64,000 nt of DNA, from contig JAIUPL010000006.1 of the NCBI GenBank assembly GCA_020160935.1, positions 62,001-126,000 on the forward strand, given 5' to 3'. This document shows positions 17,064 to 56,456 of this stretch, one piece after another. The translations under genes and the position numbers were made by a program. The DNA comes from Bacteroidota bacterium. GTDB taxonomy: Bacteria > Bacteroidota > Bacteroidia > Chitinophagales > Saprospiraceae. The notes below the pieces were generated by a model. That model was not told the origin of the DNA and made no database searches. It saw only the letters and a program-made list of their open reading frames with translations. Each line of letters begins with the position of its first letter. The first letter of the stretch is position 1.

Positions 17064-18122
17064 TTACTTTTCTTTCAATAATTGTTCTATATCATCCAGT
17101 AATTTCTTTCCTGCGGGGGAAAATTTGGCCGTAAGCGCTGCAGATTTGGATCTTCCCATGACGAATGCAAAATTGTCGGCCAGTACTTCATCCGGGTGAA
17201 TGATATACCCCGTATTGTCCTTGATCTGGTTGAAAAAGTCGGGCTGTTTATCGATGCTCAAAGTGCTGGTCAGGCCATCCTCTTTGGTCAGTACGCGCCA
17301 CGAACCATCGGCATTTTTTTCTACCTGAAACAGGTTAAACTCAAGATAACCGAAAAACTCGGTAATACTGCTTTGGTAACCAGCCTGGTTGGCATAGAGA
17401 ACGGGAATGGCTTCTATAGTTGATCCGTCGGCCTGGCGGAGTGTAATTTTTTGAGCAAAATCCACGCCGTCCGGATTGTGTAGCAACCTGTCCGACAATG
17501 CCGGTGGAATTCGCAGGTTTTGATAACCAATTTCCTGAAAACCAATGAGTTGGTACAGTTTGTCGCTTTTTTGAGGGTTCAAACGTGAATAAACGTGAAA
17601 CAACTCATGGAACATCGTGGTAGTAAACGGATTGGTTTTTTTGGAATCCAGTTCGTTTGCCGGAATAATGATGCAGTTCTCACGTGTGTACCACACGCCA
17701 TCGCCGTAGTGCCTGCCTTTGGTTTTGATGAGCAATATGGTGTCCGGGAAAATGCCGGGCGCCACTTTTTCACTCGTTTCAAAGACTTTTTTGATGACAT
17801 CTGCGGTGAATTTGGCTTCATCGGCACTAAAACTCAGCACATCGCTTTTCAGGAAGGCTACGTACTCGGGCAGCATTTTTTCCCGGGTGTCGGCCGTGGT
17901 CAATTCGCGTTTCATCTGAATCGACATTTCCGTAAGCCTTACTTTCTGAAAATAAGCGTCGCGGTGATCCGTGGTGATGGCTTTGGCAGCATCGGTGCTG
18001 TCGAGCAGATACACGATGTGTTTGCTGTCTAATCGCACTTCTTTTACAGCGGGCTGCGCCTTGCATTCCAGCAAAAACAACACAGACAGCAGGCACAGGG
18101 AGAGAAAAGATTTTTGTTTCAT
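17064..18122 (-). CDS. Putative secreted metallopeptidase-like protein (HEXXH)
   Basis: 352 residues with a signal sequence (LLSVLFLLECKAQ). The Cys before KAQ has Glu at -1, so it is a poor lipobox and signal peptidase I cleavage is as likely. A HELFHVYS segment near residue 172 gives a zinc-type HEXXH motif, and FQEIGYQN about 20 residues on could supply a third ligand. The rest is not recognisable to me. A periplasmic metallopeptidase is the simplest reading. The stop lies 1 bp before the DUF2520 start, and the sirtuin gene ends 14 bp upstream. Confidence 0.7.
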   Translation of the reverse strand: MKQKSFLSLCLLSVLFLLECKAQPAVKEVRLDSKHIVYLLDSTDAAKAITTDHRDAYFQKVRLTEMSIQMKRELTTADTREKMLPEYVAFLKSDVLSFSADEAKFTADVIKKVFETSEKVAPGIFPDTILLIKTKGRHYGDGVWYTRENCIIIPANELDSKKTNPFTTTMFHELFHVYSRLNPQKSDKLYQLIGFQEIGYQNLRIPPALSDRLLHNPDGVDFAQKITLRQADGSTIEAIPVLYANQAGYQSSITEFFGYLEFNLFQVEKNADGSWRVLTKEDGLTSTLSIDKQPDFFNQIKDNTGYIIHPDEVLADNFAFVMGRSKSAALTAKFSPAGKKLLDDIEQLLKEK

Positions 18123-27607: not shown

Positions 27608-28171
27608 ATGCTCATCCTGAAACATGAAAAACATACTCCCGTGGTCTACAAAGTAAAATTAAAAAATGCAGATGATTCCGTATTGCTGGATAGTCCCACA
27701 TACGAATGGATCATTTCCGACCCCTATCTGTCCAAAATTGACTTCATCAACAACCTGCGCAAACACTCCAGCGGGTGTGCCGTATTTCAGAAGACATGGC
27801 GAAAGGCCGATGGCGATTACAAAACGGAAACGATTTATCTCCACAAACTGATTGCTGAAAAATTTCTCAGCGACCAGAAAAAAAATGGTAAATCCCTCGT
27901 GGGCGCCAAAAATGGTGATAAACTCGATTGTCGCCTTGACAACCTGATATATCGCTCTCGGGCTGTTGCCAGCCGCCAGCGTAAAACCAGCAGTAAAACC
28001 GGTTTTACAGGCGTTTATCAAGAACACAACCGGTACCGCGCCGTTATTTCTATCAACGGTCGCCCTGTTCACCTGGGTATGTTCGATACCGCTGAAGAAG
28101 CAGCGATGGCTTACAACAAGATGTCGAAGGAGATGTATGGAGAAGACGGAAAATTGAATAGAGTGAAGTAA
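27608..28171 (+). CDS. HNH-AP2 type DNA-binding protein, HNH site degenerate
   Basis: 187 residues. The middle (YLHKLIAEKFL ... NGDKLDCRLDNLIYRS) follows the HNH homing-endonuclease layout LHRLIAxxF ... HxDGNKxNNxxxNL, but the segment where the central catalytic His normally sits reads LVGAKNGDKLD, with no His. The C-terminus (TGFTGVYQEHNRYRAVISIN ... FDTAEEAAMAYNKMSKEMYG) is an AP2/ERF DNA-binding domain. Both parts together are typical of mobile HNH-AP2 endonucleases; loss of the His suggests a DNA-binding protein rather than a nuclease. Its stop codon merges directly into a hairpin repeat. Confidence 0.8.
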   Translation: MLILKHEKHTPVVYKVKLKNADDSVLLDSPTYEWIISDPYLSKIDFINNLRKHSSGCAVFQKTWRKADGDYKTETIYLHKLIAEKFLSDQKKNGKSLVGAKNGDKLDCRLDNLIYRSRAVASRQRKTSSKTGFTGVYQEHNRYRAVISINGRPVHLGMFDTAEEAAMAYNKMSKEMYGEDGKLNRVK

Positions 28172-28340
28172 GTCTTAAGTCCTGAGTCGACAGTCCTAAG
28201 TCCTAAGTCCGTAGAGTTGACCGACTTATTTTTGGCATTAATATTTAGATGGCCAAAGGCAAGTCGGTCAACTCTACGGACTTAGGACTCAGGACTTAGG
28301 ACTCAGGACTGTCGACTCAGGACTATCGACTCAGGACTCA
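28172..28340. repeat. Large hairpin with tandem heptamer arms, copy 1
   Basis: The gap between two convergent genes is filled exactly. Left arm (28172-28227) and right arm (28261-28340) are built from heptamers of the type AAGTCCT(A/G), with interspersed GTCGACA-like variants. They meet in a 20-base perfect inner stem containing GTAGAGTTGACCGACTT. The loop (28228-28260) contains TTTGGC/GCCAAA, which can extend the stem. The right arm ends on the base before the miaE-like stop codon, and the left arm starts on the base after the upstream stop. Related copies lie at 44988-45123 and 55140-55291. Confidence 0.92.
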
Positions 28341-28946
28341 CTAATGCATTCTATCCCCCCTCGGCGTCAGCCGTTCCATCACCCCTGCTTCAAACTTCAG
28401 GTATTCCTGCCAGCGGGCCCAGGTGCGTTCTTTGCCGAAATAGAGTTCGGCCAGGTCGAGAAACATCCTGTAATGGCTGGCTTCTGCCACCATAAACTTG
28501 TGGTACCAGCCTTGCAGGTCGACATCCGAGCAATACAGCGACAGCAGTCGGAATCGTTCACAACTGCGTGCTTCTATCAGTGCAAACGTGAGCAGGCGCT
28601 CGAACAGGGCTTCCTCGCGGGTGCCGCCTCGTTTCTGAAATGTTTGTAACTCGTTGACGTACTCGTCTTTGCGTTGCTTTCCGAGGGAGAGGTTTCTTTT
28701 TTTCAATTCGGCCAACACCATGCGAAAATGCCCCCATTCTTCCGTGACCACCGGCGCCAGTTCTTCCACCAGTTCCACCTTATCCGGATAACTCTGTATT
28801 AGTGAAATGCATGCAGTGGCTGCTTTTTGCTCGCAGTAAGCGTGATCTGTCAGGATTTCTCCCAGGTCCATTTCAGCCAGGTTGACCCATCGGGGGTCGG
28901 TGGGCAGTTTCAAACCCAGTTTGGTATTGTGCAAAGGCGATTCCAT
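28341..28946 (-). CDS. miaE: tRNA-(ms2io6A) hydroxylase MiaE
   Basis: 201 residues from the ATG at 28944-28946. Di-iron ligands appear as Glu in DLGEILTDHAYCEQKAA, EEWGHF (ExxH) in the middle, and ALIEARSCERF with VAEASHYRMF (ExxH) in the second half, the four-helix-bundle pattern of MiaE. The enzyme hydroxylates the isopentenyl side chain of 2-methylthio-i6A37 in tRNA with O2. It is divergent from the SPOUT methyltransferase gene, 43 bp away, so two RNA-modification genes share a control region. Confidence 0.9.
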   Translation of the reverse strand: MESPLHNTKLGLKLPTDPRWVNLAEMDLGEILTDHAYCEQKAATACISLIQSYPDKVELVEELAPVVTEEWGHFRMVLAELKKRNLSLGKQRKDEYVNELQTFQKRGGTREEALFERLLTFALIEARSCERFRLLSLYCSDVDLQGWYHKFMVAEASHYRMFLDLAELYFGKERTWARWQEYLKFEAGVMERLTPRGDRMH

Positions 28947-28950
28947 GTGG

Positions 28951-28958
28951 CAAAGGTA
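28951..28958 (-). promoter_or_regulatory. -7 box (TACCTTTG) of miaE, near-leaderless
   Basis: Exact TAnnTTTG match on the minus strand, ending only 4 bp before the miaE ATG, so transcription would begin at or next to the start codon. Confidence 0.5.
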
Positions 28959-28989
28959 ATATCCAGCAAGAAGCCTGTATTTTCGCGGC

Positions 28990-29526
28990 ATGGAAAAATT
29001 AAGCATGGATGCGCTCGGACGAATTTCCGTAGATGATTTCCGGCGCCAAAACAAGATGCCGATCGTGCTGGTGCTCGACAATATTCGATCCGGATTGAAC
29101 ACTGGTTCTATATTTCGGACAGCAGATGCCTTTTTGCTCGAAAAACTGGTGCTGTGCGGGATCACTGCACAGCCGCCCCATCGCGAAATTCTGAAAACCG
29201 CTCTGGGTAGTACGGAGTCTGTTGCCTGGACATACACAGACTCCACCGTGGAGGCAGTAAAAGTGCTGAAAAACGAAGGTTATCAGGTATTTGCCATCGA
29301 ACAAACGACCACCAAAACCTGGTTGCAGGATTTCGATCCCATGCTGGAGAAAAAATATGCTTTTATCCTCGGCAATGAAGTGGACGGCGTAGATGACGAG
29401 GCCTTGACTGCTTGTGATGGCACCATTGAAATTCCGCAGTATGGCACGAAGCATTCACTGAATGTGGCTGTTGCGGCTGGTATTGTGGTGTGGGAAGTGG
29501 TGCGAAAAATGGTAGCAGATGTGTAG
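28990..29526 (+). CDS. TrmH/SpoU family (SPOUT) RNA 2'-O-methyltransferase
   Basis: 178 residues. The three SPOUT motifs are DNIRSGLNTGSIFRTADAF, FILGNEVDGV and IEIPQYGTKHSLNVAVAAGI, including the catalytic Arg and the knot that binds S-adenosylmethionine. It lacks an N-terminal substrate-binding domain. It methylates tRNA or rRNA ribose; the exact site cannot be told. The start codon lies 43 bp from that of miaE, and a TATTTTCG element (28978-28985) sits 4 bp before the ATG. Confidence 0.92.
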   Translation: MEKLSMDALGRISVDDFRRQNKMPIVLVLDNIRSGLNTGSIFRTADAFLLEKLVLCGITAQPPHREILKTALGSTESVAWTYTDSTVEAVKVLKNEGYQVFAIEQTTTKTWLQDFDPMLEKKYAFILGNEVDGVDDEALTACDGTIEIPQYGTKHSLNVAVAAGIVVWEVVRKMVADV

Positions 29527-29957: not shown

Positions 29958-30103
29958 GGCGCTGGCGCGCGGCCAATGCCGTTAACTTAAGGGTTGGGGA
30001 CGTTAAGAGGGATAGTAGATTTATTACATGTCTTCAAGAAATCGAAAAAATTCTAGCCACTTGATTTTCCTTAAGTTAACGGCATTGGCCGCGCGCCAGC
30101 GCC
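29958..30103. repeat. 35-bp perfect inverted repeat around a 76-bp segment
   Basis: The left arm 29958-29992 (starting GGCGCTGGCGCGCGG) and right arm 30069-30103 are perfectly complementary. The 76 bp between them are AT-rich and, read rightward, encode an ORF end (FITCLQEIEKILAT then stop) that looks like a displaced gene tail. The arms are GC-rich, in contrast with the AT-rich island. A sequence similar to AGGTGCGCCAGCGGGG follows at 30120 and recurs in a variant form at 29578. Confidence 0.9.
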
Positions 30104-30629: not shown

Positions 30630-30717
30630 TCGTGACTACAGGGACAAAGGCTGTCCATTCCTCACCCGAAGGGCTTAGCGGCTCATATTTTCACACCGTC
30701 AGGTCTTCCCCAATCAA

Positions 30718-30773
30718 CCCAAGCGCCGCGCCGCAGGAGTGTCTCCGACCTGCTGCCAACATACAGTACGATC
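30718..30773. repeat. 56-bp repeat, left copy flanking the transposase fragment
   Basis: Inverted partner of 30995-31050, with 51 of 56 positions the same by eye. The centre TGTCTCCGACCTGCTGCCAA is identical. It lies 30 bp before the Y1 transposase ATG. Confidence 0.85.
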
Positions 30774-30779
30774 ATCCCA

Positions 30780-30787
30780 TATATTTG
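30780..30787 (+). promoter_or_regulatory. -7 box (TATATTTG) before the Y1 transposase fragment
   Basis: Exact TAnnTTTG match 15 bp before the ATG at 30803. The same TATATTTGTGTACAC-like context recurs upstream of the 57908 gene. Confidence 0.5.
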
Positions 30788-30802
30788 TACACAAAAAAAG
30801 AC

Positions 30803-30997
30803 ATGAAACCGCTTCCTATCGAAGGATATACAGCCCTTTACTTCACCACAGCAAGCATCAAAGGCTGGAAGCACCTGTTGAAGCCGGATAAGTATAAAAG
30901 AATAGTGACAGATTCGATGGCTTATCTGGCGGACCGGCAAGAAGTATGGTTTTATGCTTTTGTGATCATGCCCAACCACATACATTGGATTTGGGAT
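30803..30997 (+). pseudogene. REP-associated Y1 (IS200-like) transposase, N-terminal fragment
   Basis: About 65 codons remain: a start (MKPLPIEGYTALYFTTASIK), then WKHLLKPDKYKRIVTDS and the HUH motif in VIMPNHIHWIW. Y1 transposases of the RAYT group carry the catalytic Tyr about 60-80 residues beyond the HUH motif; here the homology stops just after it, at the point where an inverted copy of the 56-bp repeat begins. The frame then runs on as nonsense to 31156. The protein cannot be active. It marks the site as one visited by a REP-type system. Confidence 0.75.
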
Positions 30998-31050
30998 CGT
31001 GCTGTACATTGGCAGCAGGTCGGAGACACTGCTGCGGCGCTGCGCTTGGG
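30995..31050. repeat. 56-bp repeat, right copy interrupting the transposase
   Basis: Inverted relative to 30718-30773. It truncates the transposase reading frame after the HUH motif. GATC is found at the inner end of both copies. Confidence 0.85.
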
Positions 31051-31104
31051 ATTTGTTGAAAAGATAGAGAAAATCTGCCGAGGCGGAACCGTTTTAGTGA
31101 AACG

Positions 31105-31152
31105 GTACACTCTACGGACTCTCACCCTCTCATCCTCTCACTCTCTCACCTT
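31105..31152. repeat. Half hairpin element: GTACACTCTACGGACT core plus four octamers
   Basis: The core GTACACTCTACGGACT (31105-31120) matches the inner arm of the heptamer hairpins at 45.1 and 55.2 kb. It is followed by four exact-length octamers CTCA(C/T)C(C/T)T-like (31121-31152) that end on the base before the ruvB stop codon. Only one arm is present. A small hairpin (ACCGTTT/AAACGGT, 31088-31106) precedes it. Confidence 0.8.
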
Positions 31153-32166
31153 CTAAAACAAAGTTCCTGCTTGCCTTGGCGGCACAGCCCCGATATGCTT
31201 GTACGCCTTTTCCGTTGCAATCCTGCCACGGGGCGTGCGTTGCAAAAAACCTTCCATAATCAGGAAAGGTTCGTGTACTTCCTCGATGGTGCCAGCCTCT
31301 TCTCCCACGGCAGTACCCACGGTAGTGAGCCCCACCGGGCCGCCTTTGAATTTATGAATAATGGTGGTCAGGATACGAATATCCATTTCGTCGAGGCCGG
31401 ATTCGTCGACGTCCAGTGCGGAAAGACCATATTTGGCGATGGCCTCATCCACTTCTCCGGAGCCTTTGATCTGGGCAAAATCGCGGATGCGGCGCAGCAA
31501 GGCATTGGCAATACGAGGCGTGCCACGGCTGCGACGCGCAATTTCGTAGGCGCCATCGGGCGTAATGGGAATATTCAGGATTTCTGCCGAGCGGTGCAAG
31601 ATGCGCACCAGCGTGGCCACATCATAATAATCGAGGTGACAGGAAATGCCAAAACGGGCGCGTAGGGGAGAGGTCAGCAATCCCATACGCGTGGTTGCGC
31701 CCACCAGCGTAAACGGATTTAGGGTGATTTGTATACTGCGGGCGTTCGGGCCCGAGTCGATCATAATATCAATTCGGTAATCTTCCATAGCCGAATACAG
31801 GTATTCTTCCACCACAGTATTCAGCCGGTGTATTTCGTCGATGAACAGCACATCGCCGGGTTCCAGATTGGTGAGCAAGCCTGCCAGATCGCCGGGTTTT
31901 TCGAGTACCGGGCCGGAGGTCATTTTCATGGAAGCGCCCAGTTCATTGGCCACGATATGGGAAAGAGTGGTCTTGCCAAGGCCTGGCGGGCCATGCAGCA
32001 ACACATGATCCAGTGCTTCTCCACGCTGACGGGCAGCCTGAATGAATACCTGGAGGTTATCCACGATTTTTCCCTGCCCGCTGAATTCATCGAGCAATTT
32101 TGGGCGAAGCGCTTTCTCTATGAGTTTCTCTTCGCCTACCGGTTCGTTTGCAAGGTCTTTTGACAA
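31153..32166 (-). CDS. ruvB: Holliday junction branch-migration ATPase RuvB
   Basis: 337 residues. Walker [10 protein letters not shown], Walker [10 protein letters not shown], the sensor-1 [12 protein letters not shown] and the Arg finger region SPLRARFGI are intact, followed by the winged-helix C-terminus ([17 protein letters not shown]). RuvB works with RuvA to move Holliday junctions during recombination and repair. The start is ATG at 32164-32166. No ruvA or ruvC lies nearby, which is common in Bacteroidota. Confidence 0.98.
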
Positions 32167-38661: not shown

Positions 38662-38818
38662 AACAACGAGAAAACGGCGCTCCGCCGATGAAAGTTTGTG
38701 ATTTGACCTCAGGCAGCGAAATCTGTGTTCGAAGTATCCCGCTTTTTGTCTTTTTTTGCACTGCAGTATGCAAACCTGGACATCGCTCTCTTACTTTGAA
38801 ACAGCTCCCGTGTCATAC

Positions 38819-41800
38819 ATGAAACTACTTTTACCATTCATCTTTCTGTTTTTTGCCTTCTTGCTTCCTGCCCAAAATTACCTCATGAATAATACCGCTG
38901 TACAGGATTGCAGCGGTACGTTTTATGACAGTGGAGGAGGCGCCGGTAACTACGGCAACAACGAGTCGTTTACCAAAACTTTTTGCTCGGACGGCAGTTC
39001 GGGTACGCACGTTCAACTAAATTTTTCGGGGATCGACCTCGCCGGAGGAGATTTGTTGTGTTTCTACGATGGCCCGAATACAGCAGCACCATTATTGGCC
39101 TGCTCCGACGACTACCCGCCGGGTCAGCCTTTTATCGTACAGGCTACAGCCGCCAACCCGAGTGGTTGCCTGACCGTACAGTTTGAATCGGATGGCACTG
39201 GCACGGCTACGGGCTGGTCGGCAGTACTTTCCTGTGTGGCTTCCTGTCAAACGGTTTTGGCGGATTTGGTTTCCACCAATCCTGCCATTTTTCCGGCAGA
39301 TACCGGCTGGATCGACGTTTGTCCGAATGAACGAATATTCTTCAATGGCGCAGGCGTATATCCTCAAAACGGATTTGCCTATCAACAGTCGGACCTTACC
39401 ACCACCTTTGAGTGGAACTTTGGAGATGGCGGCATTTCCTATGGCCCCAATACTTCGCACCGTTTTGATGAACCGGGCGGCTACTACGTTCAGTTGTTTC
39501 TGGTCGATCAGCAAGGATGCAGGAGTACCAATCTGATCAACCAACGCATTCGTGTAGCGCCACGACCCAATTTCGCGCTGGCTGGTGCTGTCACAGATCA
39601 AATTTGTGCACACGACACCATACAACTCAGTGCCGTAGTGGCTGGTGCTGCCAATGGACAAAATCTGGTAGTGACGCCTACGCTTTCAGCGTTTTCCGTG
39701 GAAGGAAGCCGATCCGACTCCCTGGCCTTGCCGGATGGAACGGGTATTCCATATCAAACCTCTATTTTCTTTACTGAATTTTCTCCGGGGCAGGTGCTTA
39801 CCAATGAAGATGATCTGGAAAGTATTTGTGTAAATATGGAGCACTCCTATATGCGCGATTTGCAGATCACCCTTACCTGCCCGAATGGACAAATGATTAC
39901 GCTACACAATTTTGCCGGGCAAACAGGTGGCGGGGTGTTCCTGGGAGAGCCTAACGACTTTGACGGTTTTAACCCGATTCCTGGCCTGGGATATGATTAC
40001 TGCTGGACTCCCAATGCTCCGAATCCAACCTGGATTCAATACGCCAATACGACCCTGGGTGGCTTTGGCACGCTACCGCCGGGCGATTACAGCACATTTG
40101 ACCCCATTTCAGATTTGGTGGGATGCCCGCTCAATGGGGAATGGACGATTACAGCCACCGACTTGTGGCCCATTGATAACGGATATCTTTTCAGTTGGAG
40201 TTTGAAATTCAAGGATGAACTGTATCCCAATATTGAAACCTTTACTCCTGAAATTGTAGACTGGCATTGGAACAACCATCCTTCCATTTTCTATGCTACC
40301 CAGGATTCGATTGCTGCTTCGCCGCAGAATGCTGGTACTGCGGGCTACATTTTTACTGTACGTGATACGTTTGGCTGTGTATGGGATACCCTGGTAAATG
40401 TATCGGTGCTTCCGTTTACCAGCCCGCAATGCTTTAGTTGCGATATTGATTACAAAGCCCTGCGCGATACAGCCGTTTGTGAGGGAGAACCTGTATTGCT
40501 CGATGCCTCTTCCCTGAATCCCAGTCAACTGGAAGTAAGGTTCGAATCATATCCTGATTACAGATTGGGGAACGGGAACCACCCGCACAACAATCCTTAC
40601 CCGGCGCCCATTTCTGTCAGCAATGTCGGATATAATTTATTGACCAATCCAATCACGCAGATTACTTCTGTTTGTATGGATATTGAAACAGACTTCGATG
40701 CTGACCTGAATATTTATTTGCGATCACCGGACGGAAAACAACTTGAACTGACTACCGGAAACGGGGGCGCCGGCGATAATTACCATAATACCTGTTTTAC
40801 CCCAACAGCATCTACCAATATCGTCGGAAGCACCGCCCCTTTTACAGGCAATTATCGCCCGGAAGGCATGTGGACATCTTTGAACAATGCTGTGGTGAAC
40901 GGCGACTGGAAACTGATGATTTCTGATGGTTTCGGTCCCAATCAGTTAGGCAAAGTGAAATGGTGGAGTATTGGCTTCAACTACGACAATACACCAACCT
41001 ACTCCTGGACAAACGCTGCTTCGCTGGATTGCAACAACTGTGCGACGCCGACAGCCACCCCAACTACCAACAGTACCTATATAGTTACGGCAAAAGACCG
41101 GTTCAACTGCGAGCACAAGGATACTGTCACGGTAAGTATCATGAGTTTTTTCCCGGCGCCGGCCAACCTGGAAGTAATAAGTCTTGGAACCAGTGATATG
41201 ACCTGGGCATGGCAACCGGTACAAGGCGCTACCGGCTATGAGGTTAATGTAAACAACGGCGGCTGGCAGCCATCCAGCGGTTTGCTCACGCATACCGTGA
41301 CAGGGCTGGTGTCGGGTGATGTAGTAAGTATCGAAGTGCGCGCGCTGGGAGGAAGCCCCAACTGTCCGCCCAATATTGCTACGGCCTCCCAAACATTCAT
41401 CATGTGTACGCTTTCCGGTAGCGTGTCGGCCCTGGCGGCGGCGCAATGTGCAGGCACCAATACCGGATCGGCTATTATCAGTGCAAACAATGCGAATGGT
41501 AATGTCGATTTTTTTGCAAACGGAACAGGAACGCCGTTTAGCAATGGTGATCTGATGAACATATTTGGCGCTGGCAGCCATTTTGTAGTGCTGCGCGATG
41601 CTGCCGGCTGCCGGGATACGGTTGATTTTAATATTACCGAACCGGGACCGATTGTGCTGAATGCCACACATTCCGATGTGCTTTGTAATGGTGGCAGCAG
41701 TGGCTCGGCATTTGTAACTGCCACTGGTGGTACTGGAAACATCTCCTTTGAATGGCAATTGTGTGGAGGTGGAACTCCTACGCCCGGAGCCGCCATCAGT

Positions 41801-44800
41801 AGCCTTTTTGCAGGATGTTATGAGGTGGTTGCTACCGACGACAATGGCTGTACGGAAACTGCCAGCGTACAAGTGGCAGAACCGGCTGCGTACTCATTTC
41901 AGTTGACCCAGGATTCGGTGAGTTGTAATGGCCTGTCGGATGGCGCTGCTAATATTGTAGTATCAGGTGGAACAACGCCCTATCAGTATGCCTGGGACAA
42001 TCTGAGCATTACGCCGGGCGCCTCCGGGTTGAATGCCGGACTTCACTTTGTCACAGTTACGGATGCTGCCAATTGTATTTCTACCACATTTATTGAAGTG
42101 CTACAGCCGGCTACACTTCTGATTGACAGCACTGCTTCTCGTGCAGTTTCCTGTTTCGGGGGCAACAACGGCACTGCTTCCGTATTCCCTGTTGGAGGCA
42201 ATGGAGCATACCAGTATAATTGGCAGGATAGCCAGAATACGCCCAAGGCAATCAATCTGTCCGCCAACACTTATGCTGTTACAGTGAGCGATGCGAAAGG
42301 ATGCAGTGTAACAAGCAGCGTTACGGTTGAAACTCCGGATGAGTTGCAGGTGACGTTCAGTGCCATAGCAGATGAAAGATGTGCAGGCGATTGCTCCGGA
42401 ACGGCTACTGTAGTAGTGGCTGGCGGAACAGCACCTTATGATTATCAATGGGACGACCCGAATCTCCCGGATGGAAATGCTACAGCGGGCAACCTGTGCC
42501 CCGGACAATACAGCCTGGTAGTGCAGGATGAAAGAGGCTGTACCTCTACCAATGCTGTCGATATTGCTGCGGCTATTCCAATTGACGTGCAATTTGCATC
42601 GGCAGCACCGACTTGCTCCGGTATTTTTAATGGCAATGTGCAAACTACTGCTTCTGGTGGTACTCAGCCCTATCAGTACCAATGGAACAATGTGGCTGCC
42701 ACTACACCCAATCTGCAAAACCTCGACTGCGGACAATACATCCTTACTCTTACCGATGCAGTCGGTTGTGTACATTTGGACACGGTTTCGCTCACCTGCC
42801 CCGCAACCATTCAGGTTTCATCCGTTCAAATGCAGCCTGTCAAGTGCTTTAGTGGCGCGGATGGTAGTATTGCTGTACAGGCACAAGGCGGAAACGGTAC
42901 GCTTCATTATCTCTGGAATGACAGCAATGCCCAGATAAATGCAACAGCGACTGGCCTGCTTATTGGAACATATACGGTTACTATTACCGACGATAACGGA
43001 TGTAATACCACTGCCAGTGCTACAGTCACCCAACCTCCCGTGCTGACAAACAGCATTGCCAAAACGGATGTGACATGCTTCAATGGCGCCGATGGTGTTG
43101 TTACAGCCAACCCGCTGGGCGGTGTGCAACCGTATGGCTACAACTGGAGTGTGACTCAAAGTGTACCAACGGTGTCCGGACTTCCGGCAGGCGCTTATAC
43201 GGTGACGATCACCGATGCAAATGGCTGCACCGTAAGCACCAGTGCGACCTTGCAACAGCCTGCTACGGCTGTGACGGTGGCTGTATCACAAACACAAACA
43301 GCCTGTTACGGACAAAGCAACGGCGCGGCGCTGGCCACTGCTTCCGGTGGCAATGGAGCGCCTTTCTCCTACCTGTGGAGTAATGATGAAAATACGGCCT
43401 CGGCTCATAGTCTGCCAGTGGGCTCCTACATTGTGACAGCCAGCGACAGCAAAGGCTGTACGACGACAGAAAGTATTTCCATTCAGCAACTGGATAGTAT
43501 TTCTGCCAATGTCGCCCATGTCATTCCTACGTGCTACGGATACGCCGACGGACGCGCTGCCGTCAATCAGGTGCTGGGCGGCGCAGGCGGCGGCAACCTG
43601 GCCAATTATTTTTATCAGTGGAGCAAACCGAATGCACCTAACACTATTTCAGTAGACGGTCTGGAAGGTGACCGTGTTTATACCGTTACAGTTACCGACC
43701 AGCAAGGTTGTAGCGGCATTTTTGCATTTACGGTGACACAACCGCCTGCTATCGTGGTACAAACTGCTCATGATGATGTCTCCTGTTTTGGATTTACAGA
43801 CGGTTCTGCCCGGGTGGAAAATGTACAAGGCATTAATCCGATTGCCCAATATCATTGGAGTAATAACGGCAACAGTACGCAAATCGACCAACTTGCCATC
43901 GGTACATATTCTGTGACGGTGGTGGATAGCAAAGGTTGCACCGGTACCAATTCCGAACTGATAGAACAACCGGAACCACTGGCTGTTTCGTTTACTACAA
44001 AAGACCTGCTGTGCTTCGGCGATCTGAATGCCTCTATTGCTGCCAGTGTGGAAGGAGGGACGCCTCAGTACAGCCTGAACTGGAGCAATGGCAATTCGGT
44101 TTCAAATATTACAAACCTGGGCCCGGGTACTTACACACTTCAAATTACCGATGCCAACGGATGTATTCTTGCCGACTCCGCTACTATTCTTCAGCCGGAT
44201 CAAATGCAGGTGGATGTACGCACAACCGACCCGCGCTGTTTTGAAGACCGGAATGGACATATCGACCTGAGTGTTTCAGGCGGAAAACTGCCATACAAAT
44301 ACAGCATTGACGGCAGTGATTTCAATGGTTCACCCAATTTTATCGGCCTGGGGGCTGGTACCTATACGGTTCAGATAAAGGATGCCAACAATTGTATTGT
44401 TTCCCTGACGGATTCATTGCTGCAACCTCTGCCTATTGAATTGTCGCTCGGAGCAGATACATCTCTGGTGCTTGGCGACAGCATGGTTTTATCGCCGGAT
44501 ATTTCAAATGCGGTAGGTGCATTGCTGTATAAATGGCACAGCGCGCTGGTGGACACCTGGAATTGTCTCGATACCGTCGATTGTGAAAGTATCCTGATAA
44601 AACCGGATCATACCAACACCTACTTTGTTCAAATTACCGATGCCAATGGCTGTCAGGGTGAAACCAAACTCAAAGTATCGGTAGAAAAACCGCGTGGTGT
44701 ATTTGTTCCAACCGCATTCTCTCCAAACGGAGATGCCGCCAACGACTTGCTGATGGTGCATGGCAAATCAGATCAGGTGCGCAGCATTTTGTCTTTCAAG

Positions 44801-44989
44801 GTGTACGACCGCTGGGGTGAACTGGTGTATCAGGATCAAAATTTCAGCGTAAACGATGCTTCCCGTGGCTGGGATGGCCATTTCAAAGGTAATGCCTGCG
44901 ATCCGGGCGTTTTTGTATGGCACCTGGAAGCGGAGTATATCGACGGATATCGGGAAGTGCTTAGTGGTAATGTTACGCTTGTGAAATAG
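38819..44989 (+). CDS. Giant SprB-repeat adhesin with CUB, PKD, P domains and type B T9SS domain
   Basis: 2056 residues from the ATG at 38819, which opens a signal peptide (LLPFIFLFFAFLLPAQ). In order: a CUB-like domain (about 20-140, FCSDGSSGTHVQLNFSGIDL), a PKD domain near 197 (FEWNFGDGG), two proprotein-convertase P-type domains (about 336-464 and 616-722, ICVNMEHSYMRDLQITL and VCMDIETDFDADLNIYL), an FN3-like domain (about 780-860), about 12 SprB-type repeats of 75 residues (about 940-1880, each with C.G..G.a.....GG..PY.Y.W), and the gliding-type sorting domain (FVPTAFSPNGD ... YDRWGELVYQ ... GWDGHFKG). SprB is the mobile adhesin of gliding flavobacteria. A SprF-like gene follows, as with sprB. 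Confidence 0.9.
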   Translation: MKLLLPFIFLFFAFLLPAQNYLMNNTAVQDCSGTFYDSGGGAGNYGNNESFTKTFCSDGSSGTHVQLNFSGIDLAGGDLLCFYDGPNTAAPLLACSDDYPPGQPFIVQATAANPSGCLTVQFESDGTGTATGWSAVLSCVASCQTVLADLVSTNPAIFPADTGWIDVCPNERIFFNGAGVYPQNGFAYQQSDLTTTFEWNFGDGGISYGPNTSHRFDEPGGYYVQLFLVDQQGCRSTNLINQRIRVAPRPNFALAGAVTDQICAHDTIQLSAVVAGAANGQNLVVTPTLSAFSVEGSRSDSLALPDGTGIPYQTSIFFTEFSPGQVLTNEDDLESICVNMEHSYMRDLQITLTCPNGQMITLHNFAGQTGGGVFLGEPNDFDGFNPIPGLGYDYCWTPNAPNPTWIQYANTTLGGFGTLPPGDYSTFDPISDLVGCPLNGEWTITATDLWPIDNGYLFSWSLKFKDELYPNIETFTPEIVDWHWNNHPSIFYATQDSIAASPQNAGTAGYIFTVRDTFGCVWDTLVNVSVLPFTSPQCFSCDIDYKALRDTAVCEGEPVLLDASSLNPSQLEVRFESYPDYRLGNGNHPHNNPYPAPISVSNVGYNLLTNPITQITSVCMDIETDFDADLNIYLRSPDGKQLELTTGNGGAGDNYHNTCFTPTASTNIVGSTAPFTGNYRPEGMWTSLNNAVVNGDWKLMISDGFGPNQLGKVKWWSIGFNYDNTPTYSWTNAASLDCNNCATPTATPTTNSTYIVTAKDRFNCEHKDTVTVSIMSFFPAPANLEVISLGTSDMTWAWQPVQGATGYEVNVNNGGWQPSSGLLTHTVTGLVSGDVVSIEVRALGGSPNCPPNIATASQTFIMCTLSGSVSALAAAQCAGTNTGSAIISANNANGNVDFFANGTGTPFSNGDLMNIFGAGSHFVVLRDAAGCRDTVDFNITEPGPIVLNATHSDVLCNGGSSGSAFVTATGGTGNISFEWQLCGGGTPTPGAAISSLFAGCYEVVATDDNGCTETASVQVAEPAAYSFQLTQDSVSCNGLSDGAANIVVSGGTTPYQYAWDNLSITPGASGLNAGLHFVTVTDAANCISTTFIEVLQPATLLIDSTASRAVSCFGGNNGTASVFPVGGNGAYQYNWQDSQNTPKAINLSANTYAVTVSDAKGCSVTSSVTVETPDELQVTFSAIADERCAGDCSGTATVVVAGGTAPYDYQWDDPNLPDGNATAGNLCPGQYSLVVQDERGCTSTNAVDIAAAIPIDVQFASAAPTCSGIFNGNVQTTASGGTQPYQYQWNNVAATTPNLQNLDCGQYILTLTDAVGCVHLDTVSLTCPATIQVSSVQMQPVKCFSGADGSIAVQAQGGNGTLHYLWNDSNAQINATATGLLIGTYTVTITDDNGCNTTASATVTQPPVLTNSIAKTDVTCFNGADGVVTANPLGGVQPYGYNWSVTQSVPTVSGLPAGAYTVTITDANGCTVSTSATLQQPATAVTVAVSQTQTACYGQSNGAALATASGGNGAPFSYLWSNDENTASAHSLPVGSYIVTASDSKGCTTTESISIQQLDSISANVAHVIPTCYGYADGRAAVNQVLGGAGGGNLANYFYQWSKPNAPNTISVDGLEGDRVYTVTVTDQQGCSGIFAFTVTQPPAIVVQTAHDDVSCFGFTDGSARVENVQGINPIAQYHWSNNGNSTQIDQLAIGTYSVTVVDSKGCTGTNSELIEQPEPLAVSFTTKDLLCFGDLNASIAASVEGGTPQYSLNWSNGNSVSNITNLGPGTYTLQITDANGCILADSATILQPDQMQVDVRTTDPRCFEDRNGHIDLSVSGGKLPYKYSIDGSDFNGSPNFIGLGAGTYTVQIKDANNCIVSLTDSLLQPLPIELSLGADTSLVLGDSMVLSPDISNAVGALLYKWHSALVDTWNCLDTVDCESILIKPDHTNTYFVQITDANGCQGETKLKVSVEKPRGVFVPTAFSPNGDAANDLLMVHGKSDQVRSILSFKVYDRWGELVYQDQNFSVNDASRGWDGHFKGNACDPGVFVWHLEAEYIDGYREVLSGNVTLVK

Positions 44990-45123
44990 TCCTAAGTCGT
45001 GAGTCCTAAGTCCTAAGTCTGTAGAGTACACATTCTTACTCTTGGTCTTCCACCATATTGATACCAAGAGTAAGAATGTGTACTCTACAGACTCAGGACT
45101 TAGGACTCACGACTCAGGACTTA
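44988..45123. repeat. Large hairpin with tandem heptamer arms, copy 2
   Basis: The left arm 44988-45046 and right arm 45063-45123 are complementary over nearly all of about 60 bp and enclose a 16-base loop. Arms consist of heptamers AGTCCTA/AGTCGTG/AGTCCTG, and the inner part is GTAGAGTACACATTCTTAC followed by TCTTGGT. The left arm overlaps the adhesin stop codon. The element separates the adhesin from its SprF-like gene. Confidence 0.93.
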
Positions 45124-54340: not shown

Positions 54341-55096
54341 TTATTTCAGTGCTGCTACAATCGCCGCGAAGTCGTCGGCTTTGAGCGATGCGCCACCAAT
54401 CAGCCCGCCGTCTACATCCGGCTGTGAGAAAATTTCAGGTGCGTTCTGGGCATTGCAAGAGCCGCCGTACAGGATGGTGGTATCATCGGCCACGGCCTTG
54501 CCATATTTTTTGGCCACGAGCACCCGAATGGCGTGGTGCATTTCCTGCGCCTGCTGGCTACTAGCCGTACGGCCAGTGCCGATGGCCCAGATGGGTTCGT
54601 AGGCGATCACTACTTTGCGGAAATCTTCTTCCTTCAGGTGGAAAAGGCTGTCTTTTAATTGTTTAGCCACGTATTTCACATGCGTATCCACCTCGCGGAT
54701 GTGCAGTGGTTCGCCACAGCAAAAGATGGGGCGCATGCCTCGCGCCAGCGTAACGTTCACTTTGGCAGCCACTACGTCGTTTTTTTCCTTGAAATACTGG
54801 CGTCGTTCGGAGTGCCCGATGATGACAAATTCCGCGCCTACGGAAGCCACCATATCGGCCGAGACTTCTCCGGTGTACGCGCCTTTTTCCTCCTGGTGGC
54901 AGTTTTGCGCAGCCAGGTGAAAGTATTTCCGAACTTTCAGCATTTTACCAATATCGCGCAAGTGGGTGAGCGGCGGCGCCACAATGACAAGTCCGCGTGG
55001 TTTTTCCACTTTTTCAAGAATGCTTTTTGTGAGTTCCAGCCCTTCTTCCAGGGTCTTGTTCATTTTCCAGTTTCCGGCTACTATTTGCTGACGCAT
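54341..55096 (-). CDS. tpiA: Triosephosphate isomerase
   Basis: 251 residues. Catalytic Lys is in GNWKMNKT, His in FVIIGHSERR and Glu in VIAYEPIWAIGTGRTAS; the phosphate loop is LYGGSCNAQN and the glycine-rich GGLIGGASLK follows. The enzyme interconverts dihydroxyacetone phosphate and glyceraldehyde-3-phosphate in glycolysis. It is divergent from the LytS kinase, with a heptamer hairpin lying between, 43 bp upstream of its start codon. Confidence 0.98.
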   Translation of the reverse strand: MRQQIVAGNWKMNKTLEEGLELTKSILEKVEKPRGLVIVAPPLTHLRDIGKMLKVRKYFHLAAQNCHQEEKGAYTGEVSADMVASVGAEFVIIGHSERRQYFKEKNDVVAAKVNVTLARGMRPIFCCGEPLHIREVDTHVKYVAKQLKDSLFHLKEEDFRKVVIAYEPIWAIGTGRTASSQQAQEMHHAIRVLVAKKYGKAVADDTTILYGGSCNAQNAPEIFSQPDVDGGLIGGASLKADDFAAIVAALK

Positions 55097-55139: not shown

Positions 55140-55291
55140 TAAGTCGACAGTCCTGAGTCCTAAGTCCTAAGTCCGTAGAGTACACCTTGTTACTTTTGGT
55201 TCTAACAAATATTAATGCTAAGAGCAATGAGGTGTACTCTACGGACTTAGGACTTAGGACTCAGGACTTAGGACTTAGGACTATGGACTTA
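55140..55291. repeat. Large hairpin with tandem heptamer arms, copy 3
   Basis: The left arm 55140-55200 and right arm 55217-55291 are heptamer arrays (AAGTCCT, AGTCCTG, AGTCGAC types) meeting in the core GTAGAGTACACC, after which the arms diverge (TTGTTACTTTTGGT against GCTAAGAGCAATGA). Unlike copies 1 and 2 it lies between divergent genes, upstream of both, so it is not tied to transcript ends here. The remaining 310-bp gap around it holds no other recognised feature. Confidence 0.93.
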
Positions 55292-55406: not shown

Positions 55407-56456
55407 ATGAAAACGCGGAGCCTGCTCGATCGAATTTATGGTTTTTTATTCCGGAGGCCGGTGTACCACGGGCTGTTCTGGATGGTATTGTTCGGGTTGA
55501 TCCTGTGGGCCGACTACGAAAAAGGCATCGATATGCGCTTTGCACTGGGCAACGAACTCATCCAGTTGTTTTTTTACGCGTTTCTGGTGTACCTGAATTT
55601 GTTGTACCTGATACCCAATTACCTGGCGCGGCACGCTTTTGTGTACTTTGGACTGGTGCTGGCGGTATGTGCGCTGGTGACGCCCATAGAGGTGCTGGTG
55701 TTTTATCTGAAATTTCACGACCAGCCGCTGTATCGGGCCAGGTTGGTGGAGACGCAGGTGTGGATATTCATTGGGAATGTGATCGTCACGATCGTTTCGA
55801 CGGTGCTGCGCGTTATCATGGACTGGTGGCGCTATCAAAATGAAAAGCAGGTGCTGCTCACACAGACTATGCAGTCGGAACTGCGTTTTTTGAAAAGCCA
55901 GATCAACCCGCATTTTTTGTTCAATACCCTGAACAACCTGTATGCCCTCACCCTGAAAAAAAGCGATAAAGCCCCGGAAATTGTACTGAAACTCTCCGAA
56001 ATCATGCGCTACATGCTGTATGAATGCAATGAACGACGGGTACACCTGACCAAGGAAATCCAGTACATCTACAACTACCTCGATCTGGAACGCCTGCGGC
56101 AACCCAAAGACACGGACATCCGTTTTGTAGTGGAAGGCCAGATCAGTGAACAGATGGTGGCGCCGCTGCTATTCATTCCTTTTCTGGAAAACAGTTTCAA
56201 ACATGGCCTCAACAACCAGATTCAGGGCGAAGGTTTTGTGCGCTTACGCCTTACTGTTGCCGGCGAAGACCTCGAATTTTTTATCGAAAACAGCAAAGCC
56301 GAACGCTTGCCCCGGCAGGATCACCCGCGCAGCGGCGGCATCGGGCTTGTAAATGTGCGGCAAAGACTGCAAATGTTATACCCCGATAACCATACACTTA
56401 CGGTGCAGGATGAGCCGCACAGATATGCTGTTACCCTGCATTTAAAAATGGTATGA
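55407..56456 (+). CDS. LytS-type sensor histidine kinase
   Basis: 349 residues. Four transmembrane helices (about 15-135) precede the short His-kinase domain. QINPHFLFNTLNNLYALTLK has the phosphorylated His near residue 168, and the ATPase part has ENSFKHGLN (N box) and GGIGLVNVRQRL (G box). This family signals through a LytTR-type regulator, and one lies 114 bp downstream in the same direction. The stimulus is unknown. There is no separate sensor domain besides the membrane helices. Confidence 0.95.
   Translation: MKTRSLLDRIYGFLFRRPVYHGLFWMVLFGLILWADYEKGIDMRFALGNELIQLFFYAFLVYLNLLYLIPNYLARHAFVYFGLVLAVCALVTPIEVLVFYLKFHDQPLYRARLVETQVWIFIGNVIVTIVSTVLRVIMDWWRYQNEKQVLLTQTMQSELRFLKSQINPHFLFNTLNNLYALTLKKSDKAPEIVLKLSEIMRYMLYECNERRVHLTKEIQYIYNYLDLERLRQPKDTDIRFVVEGQISEQMVAPLLFIPFLENSFKHGLNNQIQGEGFVRLRLTVAGEDLEFFIENSKAERLPRQDHPRSGGIGLVNVRQRLQMLYPDNHTLTVQDEPHRYAVTLHLKMV

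Follow-up and report, generated by a model that had tools for sequence, protein, structure and literature searches.

In a Saprospiraceae genome, we identified a large family of palindromic hairpins, whose arms consist of tandem heptamers that mirror each other around a common core, together with its partner locus, a gene of the S23/IVP four-helix-bundle family located between two complete hairpins of this family. Variation is mirrored within copies, other heptamer families show a like link to S23 genes, and the hairpins turn over at fixed sites. The hairpins are probably dispersed, gene-less members of an S23-type repeat element, with the S23 protein perhaps promoting hairpin copying.

Hairpins in the window

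The window is the whole 64-kb stretch of DNA analyzed here (contig C23, positions 62001-126000), which belongs to a genome of 5.84 Mb in 51 contigs (G000). The following features were identified:

28172..28340, no strand assigned: hairpin E1, occupying the space between two convergent stop codons, with its heptamer arm at 28172-28210, a palindromic core of 67 nt at 28211-28277 and the mirrored arm of heptamers at 28278-28340
44988..45123, no strand assigned: hairpin E2, which overlaps the stop of ORF 38756-44989, with its arm at 44988-45020, a core of 68 nt at 45021-45088 and the mirrored arm at 45089-45121
55140..55291, no strand assigned: hairpin E3, located between two divergent ORFs, with its arm at 55140-55174, a core of 68 nt at 55175-55242 and the mirrored arm at 55243-55291
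31103..31153, minus strand: half copy (one-sided) of a second family, ACTCTACGGACT followed by CTCTCAC-type heptamers

The preliminary description of this DNA had reported three inverted repeats with heptamer arms and the core GTAGAGT, and we find the same: the core is common to E1, E2 and E3, and the best arm pairs are 85% complementary in E1 (28171-28236/28252-28317), 97% in E2 (44988-45046/45063-45121) and 88% in E3 (55140-55197/55220-55277). The longer sequence that it had assigned to the second and third copies is GTAGAGTACAC, common to E2 and E3. Its account of the positions was also accurate, with E1 filling to the base the gap between ORF 27608-28171 (+) and ORF 28341-29246 (-), E2 starting inside the stop codon that ends at 44989, and E3 flanked by divergent ORFs 54341-55096 (-) and 55407-56456 (+). 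It had overlooked the fourth, one-sided copy at about 31103-31153, which carries heptamers of the GTGAGAG type and has no partner core within 100 bp.

The heptamer pair AAGTCCTAAGTC, with up to two mismatches, matches the window 28 times, against 2.66 expected and a maximum of 6 in shuffles. When folded as RNA, the three units of 133-134 nt have energies between -94 and -103 kcal/mol (z -16 to -18), values equalled by 0 of 200 shuffles for each unit. An Rfam scan of the window returned a single tRNA and no rRNA.

Several other features are located near E1. A separate G+C-rich inverted repeat at 29958-30103 (35 pairs, 76-nt loop, GGCGCTGGCGCGCGGC-type) belongs to a different family, and a word similar to it lies near a RAYT gene at locus L062. 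The ORF at 28341-29246 encodes MiaE; its N-terminal ~90-105 residues match a place on another contig in several genomes of the genus, and a fusion or a wrong start is possible. The ORF 5' of E1 (27608-28171) gives sub-threshold Pfam matches to AP2 and HNH_3, and an ORF of its type adjoins miaE in 20 of the 30 genus loci read.

A genome-wide family with mirrored variation

Searching the genome with the core word AGTCCGTAGAGT (up to one mismatch) yielded 411 matches, against 15 for the reversed control; with two matches per full copy, the family thus comprises about 200 copies. The core is therefore not confined to the window; the preliminary description had not noticed how large the family is. 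The canonical unit of 134 bp consists of a 33-nt arm of AGTCCTR-type heptamers, a palindromic core of ~68 nt starting with GTAGAG, and a mirrored 33-nt arm.

From 110 loci of G000, some of which overlap, plus the window, together a part of the genome, we obtained 86 distinct full copies, each with the core word within one mismatch and with no more than 7 mismatches over the first 20 core stem pairs. Pairing at these first 20 positions is thus favored by the selection, in which the arms played no part. The main class, with cores of 66-69 nt, comprises 78 of the 86 copies, and a second class (7 of 86), with cores of 54-58 nt, carries GTGAGAG-type arms. The eight copies left out of the main-class statistics have cores of 54 nt (five copies), 55, 58 and 92 nt (one each), and the 92-nt copy looks unrelated. 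In 54 of the 78 main-class copies, the distance from the core to the end of the mirrored arm is 33-35 nt, and in 76 of the 78 the core starts with GTAG, the extraction itself having required the core word within one mismatch.

Covariation was assessed in the 36 main-class copies with a core of exactly 68 nt. In this alignment, 92.4% of the cells pair, compared with 84.8% in shuffles, double changes occur at 28 of 59 pairs, and the covariation score is.225 compared with.089 in shuffles, a value reached by 0 of 500 shuffles. Across all 78 main-class copies, agreement of the mirrored arms is.905 inside a copy, compared with.848 for arms of different copies (0 of 5000 permutations); for the inner stems, the values are.860 and.689, respectively, the first 20 inner positions having belonged to the selection rule. 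Variant heptamers are mirrored as well, with exact heptamer agreement of.596 within and.337 between copies.

By eye, an apical TTGGC..GCCAA pairing appears both in the window family and in hairpins with other heptamers near S23 genes at L318, L299, L304, L317 and L325; thus, several heptamer families may have part of the core in common. Long palindromes of other short words, of the CACTAAG and ACGGATT types, are present at L257, L243, L127 and L185 in Saprospiraceae and Chitinophagaceae.

The partner gene belongs to the S23 family

A profile search of G000 with PF05635 (23S_rRNA_IVP, S23) returned 10 matches, 9 of them above the cut-off. One is the S23/IVP four-helix-bundle gene C20:17413-17763 (PF05635, 105.6 bits, cut-off 33.8; TIGR02436, 103.9 bits), whose profile match (17431-17736) is located between two complete AGTCCTR/GTAGAGT hairpins of the window family. 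The orthologue in the relative G028 (93% identical) likewise has one such hairpin on either side, and AGTGCGA arrays flank the orthologues of G016 (74%) and G006 (73%).

To score such flanks automatically, we required either that both be periodic at 7 or 8 nt at >=.64 or that they be inverted with a score of at least 34. This rule identified 8 of the 10 S23 loci of G000 (Fisher p 2e-12 against controls), 28 of 30 in five relatives (4e-37) and 14 of 30 phylum-wide (1e-14), and 5 of 418 control ORFs of 100-233 aa (3 in a first run on 300 of the 418). An earlier statistic, an inverted score of at least 40, gave 8 of 10, 6 of 30 phylum-wide and 1 of 300 controls. The 30 phylum-wide loci are high-scoring matches, one per genome, from the 75 genomes with a match, and 16 of them fail the automatic rule. 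The PF05635 rows of the relatives number 39, of which 30 were scored automatically, eight by eye, and one is the second piece of L321. By eye, arrays are present at 9 of the 10 loci of G000 and at the eight further loci of the relatives, one of which is cut off downstream; L268 and L327, both under the Pfam cut-off, lack arrays, and L266 and L321 failed the automatic two-sided rule. Two adjacent Pinibacter soli genes with period-8 AATTTGAA arrays (L221:11702-13004) are counted among the five positive controls.

Orthologous S23 genes often retain the heptamer type, forming GAGTTAT, GGTTGAT and GTGAGAG groups by eye. Furthermore, in the second family, the S23 gene of G016:C126 is located inside the arms and core themselves (GTAGAGTACACCGCTTCGC..gene..GCGAAGCGGCGTACTCTAC), and this locus is a plausible parent form of the gene-less hairpins of G000 with 54-55-nt cores. 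S23/IVP genes are widespread, with matches in 75 of the 99 Bacteroidota genomes searched and up to 16 per genome. We know of no catalytic activity for PF05635; any role of S23 in copying would therefore be indirect, which counts against the proposal made below. Genes of the GxxExxY type (PF13366) are a second candidate partner. Two S23 relatives of known structure, PDB 2gsc and 2rld, have five chains each; 2gsc is XCC0516, the S23 protein of X. campestris, which is described as a homopentamer in the available text of PMC4990558.

The same sites carry different families in relatives

The closest named relative that we found is Saprospiraceae bacterium 'new MAG-362' (contig JAEUUT010000198.1; miaE 96% identical). 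In the closest relative genome, G028, all seven sites compared are occupied, and both E1 and E2 are occupied in G028, G031, G016 and G006. The occupants differ: G028 has the same heptamer family with a different inner stem at both sites; G031 has GTGAATC heptamers with another core at both; G016 has ATGAATG at E1 and AGTGCGA at E2; and in G006, the E1 hairpin has GGTTATT heptamers, is divided between two contig ends and contains an additional insertion, whereas at E2 a GTAGAGT core is enclosed by AGTGCGA arms. In G020, the hairpin is absent at both E1 and E2. Over 500-600 bases, the flanks align at 70-91% for the four relatives that carry an element and at 64-76% for G020. The contents of the hairpins are replaced far faster than their flanks.

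At the E1 site, 30 genus loci were read at miaE, 20 of which keep the opposite neighbor gene, with 10 having no such neighbor visible. Among these 20, the gap between the stops measures 88-169 nt in five (G000, G028, G016, G031 and G022) and 1-35 nt, that is, empty, in 15. Two further observations, both from genomes other than the five relatives listed above, concern the region 3' of miaE, a 145-nt hairpin-like gap in G022 (L161) and an ACTCAAA-type heptamer hairpin in G023 (L160).

Six sites are occupied by another family (E1 and E2 of G031, G016 and G006), and at four of them the occupant matches arrays at an S23 gene of the same genome. The AGTGCGA at E2 of G016 and G006 also flanks their orthologues of the C20 S23 gene, and the GTGAATC at E1 and E2 of G031 resembles the arrays of its S23 gene at C317. 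The remaining two match S23 arrays only in other species: ATGAATG at E1 of G016 has no match among the six S23 loci read in that genome and flanks S23 in G006 and G031, and GGTTATT at E1 of G006 has none among the 11 read there and flanks S23 in G000, G028 and G031.

The preliminary description had inferred a mobile or self-propagating family and had set clean presence or absence against slow point divergence. The copy number, the patchy distribution within the genus and the gene-bearing partner loci support a dispersed, self-propagating family. Neither pattern applies, with sites common to the genomes and contents replaced. A simple MITE-style insertion is weakened by the common sites with replaced contents.

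Concerted evolution of neighboring copies

Hairpin contents were compared between species in one cluster, around the C20 S23 gene, and at E1 and E2. Each of the five hairpins around that gene has a syntenic counterpart in G028, and the region alignments, hairpins included, are 79-86% identical. Inner identity among the five is.80-.93 in G000 and.74-.91 among their G028 partners, whereas the five orthologous pairs are at.61-.67, the full set of 25 cross-species pairs at.59-.74 and random G000 pairs at.64 (sd.07); the orthologous E1 and E2 pairs stand at.63 and.54. Neighbors being more alike than orthologues, local sequence exchange after the species split seems to have occurred, and in the one cluster compared, turnover is concerted.

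Across G000, identity falls from.841 for pairs within 2 kb (n=8) to.639 for pairs on other contigs (n=2876), and the 13 pairs within 5 kb exceed all 10000 permutations. Without the C20 cluster, the likeness of near neighbors rests on 8 pairs, for which 12 of 10000 permutations reach the value. Similar neighbors occur in direct and in inverted orientation.

Distribution across species

Within the genus, the hairpin family is distributed patchily among species. Four of the 42 genus genomes searched, G000, G028, G016 and G006, contain a C20 S23 orthologue of at least 70% identity and are also the four with the most core matches (411, 434, 100 and 175, respectively), a correlation confounded by kinship. 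Next come G031 (58) and G020 (23), and outside the genus G047 (32, control 9) and G056 (28, control 8). At the place equivalent to the C20 S23 locus, G031 lacks S23 and keeps an AGTGCGA stub.

Additionally, tblastn located S23 in 20 plasmid records, 15 of them cyanobacterial; a search of phage records gave no match. The eight cyanobacterial plasmid loci read all have a heptamer array upstream of S23, six of them also downstream, and the inverted score is at least 50 in five of the eight. The controls are weaker in this set: flanks taken from different loci (56 pairs) score 19.1 on average, with a maximum of 56, and one of nine neighboring ORFs scores 52, some arrays being common to neighboring ORFs. 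Among these loci (L383-L390), three S23 genes are located between nrdB-/nrdA-type, cas6/cas4 and cas10/cmr3 genes, and a hypothetical gene next to S23 in L390 (501-941) also has inverted heptamer flanks.

Proposed mechanism

We propose that each family has a mother locus, a small S23/IVP four-helix-bundle gene with inverted arrays of a single heptamer on its two sides, together with many palindromic copies (arm, core, mirrored arm), which would reside mostly right at stop codons. The S23 oligomer might bind the heptamer arms or the hairpin and help one hairpin or arm to be copied into another. This step could proceed by template switching or gene conversion, as suggested by the likeness of near neighbors in both orientations. 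Such copying would keep each copy palindromic while the sequence of the family drifts as a whole. S23 itself need not be a nuclease, given that host replication or repair enzymes could perform the copying. An arm of 4.7 heptamers and a pentameric S23 invite, rather than prove, the notion of one subunit per heptamer.

A broader proposal, which we put forward tentatively and with somewhat less than even confidence, is that S23/IVP proteins are the trans-acting factors of an unrecognized class of transposase-free parasites in Bacteroidota and Cyanobacteria, and probably also of the Xanthomonas repeats and the 23S rRNA insertions. A protein ring would read tandem heptamers, about five per arm to match the pentamer, and drive hairpin-directed copying, so that dispersed hairpins would be repeatedly overwritten by the current master sequence; the known heptamer repeats would be its footprints.

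Alternative explanations

The hairpins could instead be domesticated bidirectional transcription terminators or 3'-end protectors, their pairing maintained by selection at the RNA level. In favor of this, according to a simple longest-ORF caller, 32 of the 78 main-class copies are located between convergent genes and 36 between tandem genes, and most of the 78 abut or overlap a stop codon; the very stable folds and strong covariation point the same way. However, six copies lie between divergent genes (the remaining four being of undetermined context), a position that the preliminary description had already taken, from E3, to mean that the family is not only a terminator. Moreover, the RNA-type asymmetry is absent: on the sense strand of the 36 tandem-gene copies, G-U mismatches (79) are in no clear excess over A-C mismatches (68), so the pairing seems to be kept at the DNA level, and we reject selection on RNA only. 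A terminator scan for G+C-rich stems with a T run, limited to loops of 3-8, scored sites elsewhere and none at E1, E2 or E3; by eye, a T-run terminator-like sequence precedes L035 and L085. The terminator reading, which also leaves the S23 link and the change of families unexplained, fits poorly, and we consider it improbable.

The GTAG tag at the start of the core, the high copy number and the patchy distribution are also reminiscent of REP/REPIN-like elements moved by a RAYT (Y1 HUH) transposase. This reading was first suggested by the tag and by the stretch at 30632-31156, in which a RAYT-like remnant is fused to its own REP-like repeat and then to the half hairpin. The motif IMPNHIHWIW, which we take to mark the remnant, is present there, and a Pfam search of the remnant gave no match. 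The fuller RAYT-type genes of the genome, at C6:224 and C29:2332, each have their own, different inverted repeats, that of C6 being the one shared by the remnant, and their fetched flanks lack AGTCCT heptamers and have no more than a single isolated CTCTAC word. Only the truncated remnant in the window adjoins a copy, the half hairpin; the gene that the family does flank is S23. We therefore rejected the RAYT reading, which is very unlikely to be correct. Alternatively, S23 might be a passenger or a self-regulator whose arrays are its own regulatory sites, with the other arrays arising from slippage and palindrome-correcting template switches and no mobile element involved. The varying number of heptamers is in line with this, mirrored arms are expected from template switching, and in Coxiella, the S23 ORF of the rRNA insertion has heptamers in front of it (PMC4990558, available text). 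Against it, the ~200 copies have the core design in common as well as the heptamer, the gene-bearing form in G016 shares both arms and core with gene-less ones, and in four of the six cases the family at a distant site and the S23-linked arrays change together. We thus regard this explanation as unlikely, and the reading that we favor remains that of gene-less members of an S23-type element.

Significance and comparison with known systems

S23/IVP is a large family without known function, and its link to heptamer repeats may explain both. The link gives the family a testable function and turns the origin of heptamer repeats into a question for the bench, and hairpins that turn over while their sites stay fixed would be an unusual example of chromosome-wide concerted evolution in a bacterium. 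For the heptameric repeats reported in cyanobacteria, Xanthomonas and others, no agent is described, as far as the available text of PMC4692102 and PMC4679880 goes. In the open-licence PMC literature, we found no paper connecting a four helix bundle protein with inverted, tandem, intergenic or mobile repeats and no co-mention of PF05635, TIGR02436, 23S_rRNA_IVP or other S23 names, both weak absences; exact heptamer strings occurred, among the matches listed, only in papers unrelated by title, and among papers pairing heptamer-repeat and rRNA-IVS terms, S23p appeared only in PMC4990558, again a weak absence.

Several known systems resemble the family in part. MITEs are short palindromic derivatives whose ends are common to a gene-bearing form. 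The one clear case of such a relationship here is the gene-bearing form of the second family in G016:C126; the difference is that no transposase partner was found for the hairpin family.

The cyanobacterial STRR sequences are intergenic tandem heptamer arrays. The preliminary description had treated them as merely a loose parallel, which was too cautious, given that the cyanobacterial S23 arrays are two-sided in six of the eight loci read. The TAACTGA arrays are similar to the window family in being intergenic tandem heptamers, also present in some Bacteroidetes, but they are described as direct repeats mostly near start codons, and the available text describes no S23 partner (PMC4679880).

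In X. campestris, GGGAATC repeats form 186 arrays, with 70 cases of close inverted pairs; they are mostly intergenic, at a mean of 28 nt from the 5' neighbor ORF, the long arrays have different neighbor genes in two related species, and the repeats are described as G-quadruplex simple repeats (PMC4692102, available text). They share with the window family tandem intergenic heptamers, some in inverted pairs, but differ in that the available text describes no common core or partner gene, and S23, four helix and XCC0516 are not mentioned in the main text (PMC4692102).

The insertion in the Coxiella 23S rRNA contains tandem heptamers in front of the S23 ORF, and in 23S rRNA IVSs the S23/IVP ORF is located in the loop of an inverted-repeat stem (PMC4990558, available text), an arrangement found here in the second family at G016:C126. 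In contrast, the S23 gene of the window family lies between two complete hairpins rather than inside a stem, and the hairpins are intergenic between protein-coding ORFs rather than inside a 23S rRNA helix, number about 200 per genome, are mostly gene-less and have inverted heptamer arms.

Finally, the window family resembles the REPIN/RAYT systems in having many gene-less hairpins, few gene loci, each with its own repeats, and a GTAG start (PMC3116915, PMC3733652, available text). It differs from them in its partner, a four-helix-bundle protein rather than a tyrosine transposase, in its arms of tandem heptamers, and in its fixed sites, at which the sequence is replaced.
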